A stretch of 64,000 nt of DNA from Urinicoccus massiliensis. GTDB lineage: Bacteria; Bacillota; Clostridia; Tissierellales; Peptoniphilaceae. The stretch lies in assembly GCF_900120405.1 (NCBI RefSeq), contig NZ_LT635492.1:267478-331477 (forward strand). Reading direction: 5' to 3'. Below the pieces are notes generated by a model, which worked only from the letters and a program-made list of their open reading frames with translations, was not told where the DNA came from and ran no database searches. Shown here in pieces: positions 49,744 to 51,767 of this stretch (positions are counted from its first letter, which is position 1; every line of letters starts with the position of its first letter). The translations under genes and the position numbers were made by a program.

Positions 49744-50481
49744 ATGTTAGCTTTAATTGCAGGAACCGGTTTTGATCGATTTTTAAAACCTGAGGAAGAA
49801 AAAATAGTTGAAACACCCTTTGGATCCAGGGCTATTTATAAAATACAGGCCCAGGATCAAAGTTTTTACTACCTGCCCAGACATGGTCTGGACCATTCTG
49901 TAGCCCCCCATTTGATTAATTATCGGGCCAACTTGTGGGCTCTGAAAGACTTGGGGGTAGATAAGGTTCTAAGCCTATGTGCAGTAGGTTCTCTAAATAA
50001 AGACTTTAAACCAGGAAACTTTGTTGCCGTCAAGGATATTTTAGATTTCACCAAAGGACGAACCAGCACTTTTTATGATGGACAGGACCGTGACTTAAAG
50101 CACTTAGACGTCTCAAACCTTTATAGCAAGTCCATGGTCCAAGAAATTAAAAACTTCTTTAGCCAAAGACCAGAATCCTTCCAGGAAGGAATTTATGTTT
50201 GTACGGAAGGTCCTCGCTTTGAAACGGCAGCTGAAATTAAATTTTATCAAATGATTGGAGGCGATCTTGTGGGCATGACCGGGTCTCCCGAAGTCTTCCT
50301 TGCCCGGGAGCTCTCTATGAACTATGCCAGCCTGGCCCTGGTAACTAACTTTTGCACAGGGGTCGCCAGTGACTCCATTGAATTTGTTTCCTCTTTTGAC
50401 CAATATCAAGACCTCATAGAAAGTCTTTTAAACTATTTAAGTCGGAAAAACATTTCAAAGCAAGAATCGATTTTTGTTTAA
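49744..50481 (+). CDS. Methylthioadenosine/methylthioinosine/purine nucleoside phosphorylase family
   Basis: 245 residues, class I trimeric phosphorylase fold of the MTAP type: IAGTGFDRF (phosphate loop), RHGLDHSVAPHLINYRANLWALK, CAVGSLN, CTEGPRFETAAEI and GDLVGMTGSPEVFLARE. Cleaves a nucleoside with phosphate to a base and a ribose-1-phosphate; which nucleoside (methylthioadenosine, methylthioinosine, adenosine or guanosine) is open. Divergent from an MtnA-superfamily gene, suggesting coupled processing of the sugar phosphate. Confidence 0.88.
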   Translation: MLALIAGTGFDRFLKPEEEKIVETPFGSRAIYKIQAQDQSFYYLPRHGLDHSVAPHLINYRANLWALKDLGVDKVLSLCAVGSLNKDFKPGNFVAVKDILDFTKGRTSTFYDGQDRDLKHLDVSNLYSKSMVQEIKNFFSQRPESFQEGIYVCTEGPRFETAAEIKFYQMIGGDLVGMTGSPEVFLARELSMNYASLALVTNFCTGVASDSIEFVSSFDQYQDLIESLLNYLSRKNISKQESIFV

Positions 50482-50489
50482 TAGACAAG

Positions 50490-50525
50490 AAAGAACCTCT
50501 CACATTGCTCGGTGAGAGGTTCTTT
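50490..50525. terminator. Terminator of the phosphorylase gene, bidirectional
   Basis: 14-base stem AAAGAACCTCTCAC/GTGAGAGGTTCTTT. It ends the plus-strand phosphorylase transcript. On the minus strand the same hairpin is followed by T-rich sequence and would stop transcripts arriving from the riboswitch. Confidence 0.85.
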
Positions 50526-50611
50526 AATAGGGGTAATTAAATATGTTTTTATTTACAGCCTCTTCCTCTGAAATGGGAGGTAGACCGTCATTTCAGAACT
50601 GTAAATTGAGC
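50526..50611 (-). other. Structured noncoding stretch beyond the riboswitch terminator
   Basis: A long stem-loop: outer TTTACAG (50552-50558)/CTGTAAA (50599-50605) and inner CTGAAATG (50568-50575)/CATTTCAG (50589-50596). No convincing gene on either strand. It would be transcribed only when the riboswitch terminator is bypassed. Confidence 0.5.
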
Positions 50612-50642
50612 AATAAAAAAATTCCTCGCTACAGTAGGAATT
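50612..50642 (-). terminator. Intrinsic terminator of the cobalamin riboswitch RNA
   Basis: AATTCCT-ACTGTAGCG-AGGAATT followed by a run of seven T on the minus strand, about 50 bases after the aptamer. Between aptamer and terminator lies another hairpin (TTCGGTG/CACCGAG outside, TACTATT/AATAGTA inside), the likely expression platform. Confidence 0.8.
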
Positions 50643-50694
50643 CTCGGTGTTACTATTGACGTTTTTTAATAGTAGCATTTCCCACCGAAAGCTT

Positions 50695-50855
50695 AACTTA
50701 ATGTCCATAGGTAGGTCTCCTGACTTATGATCACTTTACTTTCAACGTCTTCCCGATTTCTCAGTGACTTTCTTGTTGATTTCATCTCAATTACAGTAGC
50801 GGGGGCTGTATTGGATTTTCACCAATTTCCCTTTTCCTAAGACAACTATTAAGTT
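50695..50855 (-). ncRNA. Cobalamin (B12) riboswitch, no gene downstream
   Basis: Minus-strand RNA with the conserved cobalamin aptamer blocks in order: P1 AACTTAAT (50848-50855) closing with ATTAAGTT (50695-50702); AAAGGGAA-type segment; GGTGAAAATCC; CAGCCCCCGCTACTGTAA; GTCACTG; GGGAAGAC; and the B12-box end ATAAGTCAGGAGACCTACCT. It binds adenosyl- or methylcobalamin derivatives and switches transcription or translation. Downstream in its own direction there is only a terminator and then the 3' end of the oppositely oriented phosphorylase gene, so it has no conventional target. Confidence 0.93.
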
Positions 50856-50863
50856 ATGGATAC

Positions 50864-50892
50864 ATTATATCATTGTTAATTCTTTATTTCAA
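50864..50892 (-). promoter_or_regulatory. Promoter of the riboswitch RNA
   Basis: Minus strand TTGAAA (50887-50892), 17 bases, TATAAT (50864-50869) with an extended TG. Among the best promoters in the window. It starts right after the rluD stop, and predicted initiation near 50857 falls at the first base of the aptamer. Confidence 0.85.
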
Positions 50893-50894
50893 TC

Positions 50895-51767
50895 TTATTT
50901 TTCCATAATCTTATCAAAATATTCTGGACGAGGCCTTTGAACCATAATAAGATGATGACTTCTAGGATGAACGAAAGACATTTGTGTTGCCGCCAAGGCT
51001 TGAGAGTCCAATCCATAAAAGGGTGGATGTGAATAAGTTTGGTCTCCGATTATGCTGTGTCCAATGGATTTTAGGTGGACGCGTATCTGGTGGGTCCTTC
51101 CTGTAACAATAGAAACTTCCAATAGACTTTTATTCTTGCCCCAACCAAGGGGGCGAATATGGCTGATAGCTTTTTTCCCCCTAGAATCGGTGGTCATTTT
51201 TTTCCGATCTATTTTGCTACGGGCAATGGGATTGTCAATAGTTAAGGGTTCTTTTATTAAGCCGTGAACAATGCATTGATATATTTTTTTTACCCTTCTG
51301 CTCTTAAAGTCTTTCATCAAGGCAGTCATGGCAAATTCATTTTTAGCTACAAGTAAAAGACCTTCTGTATCCTTGTCTAAGCGATGAACAATTCCGGGAC
51401 GCAAGGAATCATCTAAAACAGGCAAGTCCGGATACTTATATAAAAGCCTGTGGACTAAACTATCTTCTTCCTCCCCTGCTCCAGGATGGACAACCAAATT
51501 TTTTGGTTTATTGACAACCAAAAGGTCTTCATCTTCATAGTAAATATCAACTTGCTTGTTTACCGGGAGAATTTGATAGGACTCCTTTAGAAAAACATGA
51601 ATTTCATCTGTGGCGGATAAAAGAAACCCTGCCTTGACCTCTTGATGATTAACAAGAATCCTCTTTTCCTTGTTCATTTTTTTGATTTGGGATCGAGTTA
51701 ACCCCAGCTTTTCTGATAAATAGATATCCAGGCGAAGGCCCTCTCGGCCCTGAATTATTTTTTCCAT
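50895..51767 (-). CDS. rluD: RluA/RluD-family pseudouridine synthase
   Basis: 290 residues. N-terminal S4 RNA-binding domain (RLDIYLSEKLGLTRSQIKKM), then the catalytic domain with Asp in HRLDKDTEGLLLVAKN and VTGRTHQIRVHLKSIGH. Probably modifies 23S rRNA; exact positions are not inferable. Follows lspA with a 13-base overlap, as in many Firmicutes (lspA-rluD). Confidence 0.95.
   Translation of the reverse strand: MEKIIQGREGLRLDIYLSEKLGLTRSQIKKMNKEKRILVNHQEVKAGFLLSATDEIHVFLKESYQILPVNKQVDIYYEDEDLLVVNKPKNLVVHPGAGEEEDSLVHRLLYKYPDLPVLDDSLRPGIVHRLDKDTEGLLLVAKNEFAMTALMKDFKSRRVKKIYQCIVHGLIKEPLTIDNPIARSKIDRKKMTTDSRGKKAISHIRPLGWGKNKSLLEVSIVTGRTHQIRVHLKSIGHSIIGDQTYSHPPFYGLDSQALAATQMSFVHPRSHHLIMVQRPRPEYFDKIMEK

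Follow-up and report, generated by a model that had tools for sequence, protein, structure and literature searches.

A riboswitch is commonly understood as acting in cis on the gene that lies behind it. In EutX of Enterococcus and Rli55 of Listeria a noncoding RNA is placed under an AdoCbl riboswitch and its terminator, and the long form of this RNA is made without B12. A cofactor-sparing RNA is known in RyhB, an sRNA that is under Fur, senses iron and pairs near the ribosome-binding site of enzymes needing the scarce cofactor. EutX carries ANTAR hexaloops and acts as a sponge for EutV (PMC8934654), whilst AspocR of Listeria (Rli39/RliH) is an RNA that a B12 riboswitch ends early, at 230 nt as against 1400 nt, with the full RNA acting in trans and restraining a B12-dependent pathway (PMC8079631). 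The RZ sRNA of Sinorhizobium is an sRNA from a riboswitch locus, that of the metZ SAM-II riboswitch (PMC9373788), and sRNA regulation is also described for btuB in E. coli (PMC11162775) and for metE, on which scr5239 acts (PMC4365011).

The locus described here shares features with each of these. As in EutX and Rli55 a B12 riboswitch with a terminator governs a noncoding RNA and not an mRNA, although this likeness is one of anatomy only. Like AspocR, the RNA is a noncoding one that a B12 riboswitch would terminate early; AspocR is a long pocR antisense, whereas the RNA here is short and has a proposed 19-nt seed and unlinked targets (PMC8079631). RZ is the terminated, ligand-bound product of its locus, in contrast to the read-through product considered here (PMC9373788). 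The btuB sRNAs and scr5239 resemble it as small RNAs that act on mRNAs of B12 metabolism, but they are apparently not riboswitch-controlled themselves (PMC11162775, PMC4365011). Among the literature matches listed, none described an sRNA under a riboswitch that acts on the mRNAs of mutases, nor one that pairs through a seed with several targets.

The window (the whole stretch of 64,000 nucleotides that was analysed) contains a single Rfam match over threshold, found with cmscan, which is RF00174 Cobalamin on the minus strand at 50872-50693, full length, with 97.6 bits against a cut-off of 31.5 and an E value of 4e-23. The first-pass annotation had proposed a cobalamin riboswitch with no target gene at this position; the covariance search finds the riboswitch, and there is no ORF of at least 60 aa between 50482 and 50894, that is between the two neighbouring genes. 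The whole unit is found beside mtnP in five of 130 family genomes, that of the window (G000) and those of four other species (G001, G018, G002 and G010), at whose mtnP locus RF00174 is likewise over its cut-off. The features, in the order in which the RNA would be transcribed and with the two neighbours at either end, are as follows.

50895 to 51767, minus strand: RluA-family pseudouridine synthase gene (rluD-like), upstream neighbour (TIGR00005, 242.5 bits, over the cut-off)
50887 to 50892, minus strand: promoter -35 element TTGAAA (promoter scan; layout shared by 5 of 5 species)
50864 to 50869, minus strand: promoter -10 element TATAAT, with TG ahead of it (promoter scan)
50693 to 50872, minus strand: cobalamin riboswitch aptamer, RF00174 (cmscan), the model's unpaired 5' flank overlapping the -10 element
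50848 to 50855, minus strand: 5' arm of P1, AACUUAAU, read by eye and unchanged in 5 of 5 species
50695 to 50702, minus strand: 3' arm of P1, AUUAAGUU, read by eye, part of which pairs with terminator 1 (3' side) when the predicted antiterminator forms
50675 to 50692, minus strand: P13-like hairpin, GCUUUCGGUGGGAAAUGC (folds; 100, 100, 100 and 94% identity to the window in the four relatives)
50651 to 50674, minus strand: small hairpin UACUAUU/AAUAGUA in the interval from P13 to terminator 1, predicted top of the antiterminator (folds)
50615 to 50642, minus strand: intrinsic terminator 1, 28 nt including its 7-U (T7) tail, where the short, B12-bound RNA is expected to end
50608 to 50614, minus strand: AUUGCUC, predicted pseudoknot partner of the terminator 2 loop (shuffle test)
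50552 to 50605, minus strand: variable hairpin of the read-through RNA, with CUACCUCCC in its loop (fold)
50528 to 50546, minus strand: conserved 19-nt tail ACAUAUUUAAUUACCCCUA, proposed seed against the Shine-Dalgarno sequence and AUG of target mRNAs (conservation, target tests)
50490 to 50525, minus strand: intrinsic terminator 2 with a 14-bp stem (terminator scan), expected 3' end of the full-length RNA and common to the convergent mtnP
50504 to 50510, minus strand: GAGCAAU in the loop of terminator 2, predicted pseudoknot partner of AUUGCUC (shuffle test)
49744 to 50481, plus strand: mtnP (S-methyl-5'-thioadenosine phosphorylase-like), convergent neighbour, not thought to be a target (TIGR01694, 223.9 bits in the profile search, under its cut-off of 274.85)

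The promoter, TTGAAA-17-TATAAT at 50892-50864, begins shortly after the rluD-like gene has ended, runs into the 5' flank of the aptamer match and agrees with the consensus at 11 of 12 positions, as had been noted of a near-consensus promoter at the aptamer start. Transcription would be expected to start near 50857, and the -10 element is separated by 6 bases from AUAACUU, which lies just ahead of P1. Promoter-like sites are no rarer in shuffled sequence (4 found in the region, a mean of 4.3 in shuffles), thus it is position and conservation that make the case, with the layout recurring in all five species with a spacer of 16-17. The perfect 8-base P1 of the first-pass annotation is also present when read by eye, with cmscan aligning the P1 region differently. 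Judged by the covariance model the locus is an ordinary member of RF00174 as far as the riboswitch is concerned, and corrinoid binding is predicted.

Behind the aptamer lies what appears to be a transcriptional switch. Terminator 1 (50642-50615) corresponds to the T-tailed hairpin that had been placed about 245 nt downstream, and the expected length of the OFF RNA is 243 nt; its stem, read by eye, is of 7 bp and includes two G-C pairs and its loop is of 9 nt, features outside the limits of the automated terminator scan, so that the hairpin is unlisted there. The CGGUGGGAA of the P13-like hairpin can pair with UUCCUACUG of terminator 1 as an antiterminator, and an unconstrained fold from the P1 3' arm to terminator 1 gives this antiterminator in four of the five species. 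In G000 it is made up of CGGUGGGAA/UUCCUACUG, GCU/AGC and part of the P1 3' arm with the 3' side of the terminator. Its energy is below that of the two separately folded halves (the P13 side and terminator 1) by 1.8, 4.3, 3.6 and 3.2 kcal/mol in G000, G001, G018 and G002 respectively. The exception is G010, where the terminator is the minimum-energy fold either way and the alternative pairing is present by eye. A possible L5-L13 contact was seen by eye, with UGAAA in L5 able to pair with UUUCG beside L13, this being weaker in G010.

The mutually exclusive pairings of P13, antiterminator and terminator are those found in repressing transcriptional corrinoid riboswitches. The platform is arranged like that of the Priestia megaterium metE riboswitch, in which the arrangement was dissected by mutation (PMC10653944), and by this analogy we infer, fairly confidently, that B12 shuts off production of the long RNA; the label P13 itself depends on the layout described there. 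In the activating corrinoid riboswitch in the same paper P13 and the terminator share bases, and the layout here differs from this (PMC10653944). The output differs too, as the P. megaterium riboswitch controls the metE mRNA whereas here a noncoding RNA follows.

Beyond terminator 1 the RNA would run through a hairpin (50605-50552), the conserved tail (50546-50528) and the second intrinsic terminator (50525-50490). It had been proposed that read-through would meet about 90 structured noncoding bases and then the 3' end of the phosphorylase gene. The structure is there, with the 137-nt read-through part folding at -39.5 kcal/mol (z -5.4, with 0 of 200 shuffles as low), but it is terminator 2 and not the end of mtnP that comes next. 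In all five species the bases that directly follow terminator 1 are able to pair with the loop of terminator 2. The score of this pseudoknot summed over four species was reached in 0 of 20000 shuffles, that of single species in 53 to 384. Both sides of the helix are altered in G002 with pairing kept (UUGCCA/UGGCAA), and in G010 the helix includes G-U pairs and is in competition with its own hairpin. When the read-through part is folded by itself the tail is left unpaired, but the minimum-energy fold of the complete RNA (372 nt) pairs it with the aptamer; the latter could be how the free RNA folds, or it could be an artefact of a model that ignores the pseudoknot and the order of transcription. 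An Rfam search of the read-through part at a permissive threshold gave six matches, all far under their cut-offs, the best with 24 bits against 49.

The position of terminator 2 bears on one of the options that had been raised for this RNA, that it is an antisense regulator of mtnP, acting through overlapping 3' ends or transcriptional collision. The RNA converges on mtnP in all five species, which would fit such a role, as would the placing of terminator 2 between the two genes, where it could serve both. However, the RNA would be expected to end at terminator 2 (50490-50525), ahead of the mtnP stop at 50481 and outside the coding region, so that the RNA and the mtnP transcript would overlap only in terminator 2 itself, and an overlap with the opposite coding region of the kind seen in AspocR is absent. 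The conserved tail lies beyond the expected 3' end of mtnP and the gene order may simply be inherited, and an antisense role is thus considered quite improbable.

Comparison of the five species suggests which parts of the RNA matter. The recurring unit consists of promoter, aptamer, switch, terminator 1, variable hairpin, 19-nt tail and terminator 2, and it spans four genera in which the neighbouring genes have diverged to around 50% DNA identity (mtnP 58 to 50% identical to the window in the four relatives, rluD 60 to 45% in three). The tail is 100, 100, 95 and 90% identical, with identity falling to 83 to 19% between terminator 1 and the tail and to 53-59% in the terminator 2 region. It is near certain from such alignments that the locus is conserved, and by the same comparison specific parts of the RNA are under selection. 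The 421-nt region as a whole was matched over most of its length in two of 60 relatives (G001 at 89%, G018 at 78%); in G002 and G010 shorter stretches were matched, and the remaining matches were shorter and mostly within the aptamer. The part beyond the aptamer was matched in six of the 130 family genomes, the sixth (G020) being a match of 31 nt in a genome that is without any cobalamin riboswitch. Upstream of the RNA is the RluA-family gene, in G010 pyrR and then that gene (the relatives being recognised by eye), with the upstream side in G018 out of view where the contig ends.

The pattern of the tail was found at nine loci when one genome per species was searched for about 85,000 species, a set from which the window genome may be excluded. 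Four of these are in the four relatives that carry the RNA, Clostridiales bacterium SIT11 'Ndiopella massiliensis' and three Tissierellia MAGs, and the other five are taken as chance, having no Rfam match in 8 kb. Viral contigs gave no match to the tail pattern. Within the order the pattern GCTTTCGGTGGGAAANGCTNCTA was found with up to three mismatches in 16 of 249 genomes, and exactly only in the five species.

The first-pass annotation had also offered the RNA as the remnant of a lost B12 gene, and as a decaying leftover or a riboswitch without output it would account for there being no gene behind it and for its presence in only five of 130 family genomes. This is already contradicted by the retention of promoter, switch, both terminators and tail across four genera with neighbours at about 50% DNA identity, the tail past the terminator being more conserved than the neighbouring genes. 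Nor does a gene follow in the relatives, as none of the five species has an ORF of at least 80 aa behind the RNA on its strand before mtnP. At the loci of 20 other close mtnP homologues the exact B12-box string is absent up to 1.5 kb downstream, and thus no lost B12 gene is seen at the spot, and the tail core (one substitution allowed) is absent from the first 600 nt, whilst at least nine of these loci keep pyrR and/or rluD downstream, recognised by eye. The absence of box and tail from these loci points to a probable gain of the RNA within a single clade, and that it is a leftover is highly improbable. In G029 (L055) a cobalamin riboswitch with most of the P13 sequence is followed, as read by eye, by an apparent terminator, by another stretch resembling a hairpin and by an HD-domain gene, with no tail seen at that locus; it is possibly a related switch with another output.

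It could also be asked whether the read-through region encodes a small peptide, as the minus strand of the region has in the window an ATG frame of 43 codons (by eye) and the plus strand one of 38 aa. In the relatives the first of these is interrupted by stops or altered in length (by eye), and on the plus strand the frames are of 38, 62, 2, 11 and 22 aa in G000, G001, G018, G002 and G010, thus neither is conserved. This reading, which is scarcely credible, was dropped.

A clue to the role of the tail is that its reverse complement, UAGGGGUAAUUAAAUAUGU, resembles a Shine-Dalgarno sequence with an AUG. Pattern searches for partners in trans gave little: matches to the whole tail (TAGGGGTAATTAAATATGT, up to three mismatches) were limited in G000 to the locus itself, with six further hits at three mismatches in G001, G018 and G002 and no near-perfect match in trans. 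Scans with AGGGGTAA..ATG were under their reversed control in all five genomes, and those with AGGGGTAAN{2,10}ATG were under the reversed control with no shared target. The best first-pass duplex in G000 was with a NuoE-like gene at the start of the window (-18.0), a candidate that was rejected as three of the four relatives were unmatched and G002 was weak. Genes with a B12-binding domain showed at first look no agreement between species, the strong cases being limited to mcmB in G010 and another protein in G018. It was when corrinoid enzymes were found through the B12-binding family, and their operons then fetched with first genes, that a signal appeared. This step was exploratory, and an ortholog ranking and an oraS control were run after it to test its signal; all duplex energies were computed without folding of the partners.

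Among the tested ORFs the top duplex was that of mcmA (methylmalonyl-CoA mutase) in G001, G018 and G010 and that of oraS (ornithine aminomutase) in G002, and within the fetched B12 loci of G000 the best was the mcm-linked scpC. The identities of these proteins come from profile searches of a selection of the copies (mcmA PF01642 and TIGR00641, oraS PF16552, scpC NF053853). The mcmA sites are UUUAGGGGGUACUUUAUG in G001 (-21.6 kcal/mol), UUAGGGGGUAAAUAUAUG in G018 (-18.7 kcal/mol) and AUAGGGGGAUGAAUUAUG in G010 (-21.5 kcal/mol). For oraS the site in G001 is UUUAGGGGGUAAAGUAUG (-19.1 kcal/mol), with similar ones in G002, G010 and G018 (-17.5, -18.0 and -15.6 kcal/mol). The scpC duplexes are of -17.9, -16.5 and -15.6 kcal/mol in G001, G010 and G000, and weak in G018 at -8.4.

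For the ranking, 31 ortholog groups, each with members in three or more of the five species, were drawn from the B12-enzyme loci and the mtnP neighbourhood only, two ambiguous clusters (of eight and five members) being left out, and each was scored by its mean z against 100 shuffles of the tail. First of the 31 is mcmA (mean z -5.42, in all three species where it was found), second oraS (-4.28, four of four species) and third scpC (-2.48, strong in three of four), followed by a fourth group at -1.88. The complementary sites are thus kept in orthologs of mcmA (3/3), oraS (4/4) and scpC (3/4), and the control in other species was made with oraS. Neither metH nor kamE is a consistent target across species, and mcmB has a strong duplex in G010 only and kamD in G002 only.

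The oraS gene (PF16552) occurs in 102 of 248 genomes of the order, of which 74 were examined; in the family it is found in the four relatives that have the RNA and in two genomes that do not (G008 and G027). Start codons were picked here by likeness to AGGAGG, and in the ortholog comparison by likeness to AGGAGG or AGGGGG. TAGGGGG is present in the oraS ribosome-binding site of all four RNA-bearing species with the gene, as against 2 of 70 others, and the RNA-bearing species hold duplex ranks 1, 2, 3 and 7 of 74. The associated probabilities (Fisher 1.3e-5, rank-sum 6e-6) ignore common descent and thus overstate the strength of the contrast. The tail of G018 stood in for that of every species, and the 70 controls were judged to be RNA-free by the family search (G008, G027), by having no exact P13 block and by the tail scan rather than by a homology search of each genome. 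GGAGG is found in 55 of the 70 control sites, G008 and G027 have a canonical ribosome-binding site with duplexes of -6.8 and -6.6 kcal/mol, and in three of the 70 controls the duplex is as stable as that of the weakest RNA-bearing species or more so.

TAGGGGG start sites also occur at genes that have no link to the mutases. Genome-wide they exceed their reversed control in all five genomes (G000 42 v 13, G001 34 v 19, G018 30 v 14, G002 88 v 21, G010 40 v 22). When all 40 hits in G010 were considered, 16 begin ORFs of at least 60 aa, and by duplex energy the mutase-linked genes are 1, 3, 4 and 6 of these, with other genes at 2 and 5. The other genomes were read in part: mcmA is tied first and oraS fifth of 14 ORFs in G018 (22 of 30 hits), oraS is third of 13 in G002 (22 of 88, mostly picked by eye and thus biased), mcmA, oraS and scpC are first to third of six in G001 (8 of 34) and scpC is first of six in G000 (7 of 42).

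These start sites at other genes bring in a different account of the RNA, as a conserved, B12-switched RNA that acts otherwise, with tail and pseudoknot binding a protein, as Rli55 and EutX do with EutV, or pairing with other mRNAs, and the matches to mcmA and oraS arising as a by-product of AGGGGG-type Shine-Dalgarno sites. The tail is conserved beyond the needs of the matches, and the window genome is without oraS, both of which would sit well with such an account. Against it, the top three of the 31 ortholog groups are all linked to AdoCbl mutases, albeit from loci picked for B12 enzymes and the mtnP neighbourhood, and the oraS site is nearly specific to the RNA-bearing species. The read-through part has no Rfam family over threshold, and the loops of its fold are of other sizes than those of the dual hexaloop ANTAR motif, which is not visible by eye. 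EutX and Rli55 had been put forward as precedents, and this holds for the switch but not for the output, since theirs sequester the ANTAR protein EutV through hexaloop hairpins, whereas the partners predicted here are mRNAs and the action base-pairing. On balance an RNA acting by these other means is thought unlikely.

The genome of the window itself is a less complete example of the proposed targets. A PF16552 search found no oraS, and at L211 4806-6773 scpC lies directly before mcmB, so that mcmA, which stands between the two in the relatives, is missing from this operon, and mcmB scores lower than the copy of a relative. The methylmalonyl-CoA mutase operon has perhaps been partly lost. The RNA is intact, with a tail identical to that of G001, and within this genome it is only scpC (-15.6) that backs the target model.

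The same genome (2.1 Mb) has nine cobalamin riboswitches, three of them ahead of very large putative surface proteins at L079 3-5702 (1900 aa, cut by the end of the locus), L080 851-5845 (1664 aa) and L083 747-4181 (1144 aa). S-layer homology domains are present in L080 and L083, and DUF4430, which we take to be related to transcobalamin-type B12 binding, is found in L083 with 63 bits and in L079 just under the cut-off (23.7 against 23.8); these three are candidate surface corrinoid-capture proteins. A SAM-dependent methyltransferase-like gene lies behind a cobalamin riboswitch at L081 594-1343, and two near-identical minus-strand ORFs between two surface-protein genes (L083 4267-5171) resemble repeated DNA.

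The reading that is favoured, with a probability of roughly two in three (0.66), is that of a trans-acting, B12-sparing sRNA under riboswitch control that would repress AdoCbl-dependent mutases when B12 is absent. It takes up the sRNA among the options first suggested for a B12-responsive noncoding RNA without an adjacent gene. Conservation, architecture, complementarity and the difference in oraS ribosome-binding sites were computed here; the OFF polarity, the transcription, the repression in trans and the physiological purpose are what they are taken to imply. With AdoCbl bound, P1 and the P13-like hairpin would form, as would terminator 1, and the 243-nt RNA without a tail would be released. 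With AdoCbl absent, P13 would open, GGUGGGAA would pair with the 5' side of terminator 1 and read-through would give an RNA of about 370 nt ending at terminator 2. This long RNA would expose the tail ACAUAUUUAAUUACCCCUA, flanked by the hairpin and by terminator 2, the loop of which would pair back with AUUGCUC, and the tail could then pair in trans with the Shine-Dalgarno and start-codon region (typically UUUAGGGGGUAA..AUAUG) of the mcmA, oraS and mcm-linked scpC mRNAs. Such pairing would block translation of the mutases and thus spare B12, with the cell not making enzymes that are unusable without it.

As with RyhB-type sRNAs, the RNA would be made when a cofactor is scarce and would repress the dependent enzymes near their ribosome-binding sites; unlike RyhB, which is under the Fur protein and responds to iron, it would have its sensor, a B12 riboswitch, inside the same RNA. 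To our knowledge the B12-riboswitch noncoding RNAs act on one protein (EutX/Rli55) or on one opposite gene (AspocR). A B12-sparing regulon run by one molecule, in which a riboswitch gates an sRNA that silences several unlinked AdoCbl enzymes in trans, and in which the ribosome-binding sites have co-evolved with the tail within one clade of Tissierellia, is given odds a little better than even. If true, a riboswitch-run sRNA with several targets and seed pairing would be a direct, protein-free path from the level of a vitamin to the regulon that needs it, and the B12 counterpart of iron sparing. Orphan riboswitches would gain a testable function, with the sequence of the mutase ribosome-binding sites becoming its readout.
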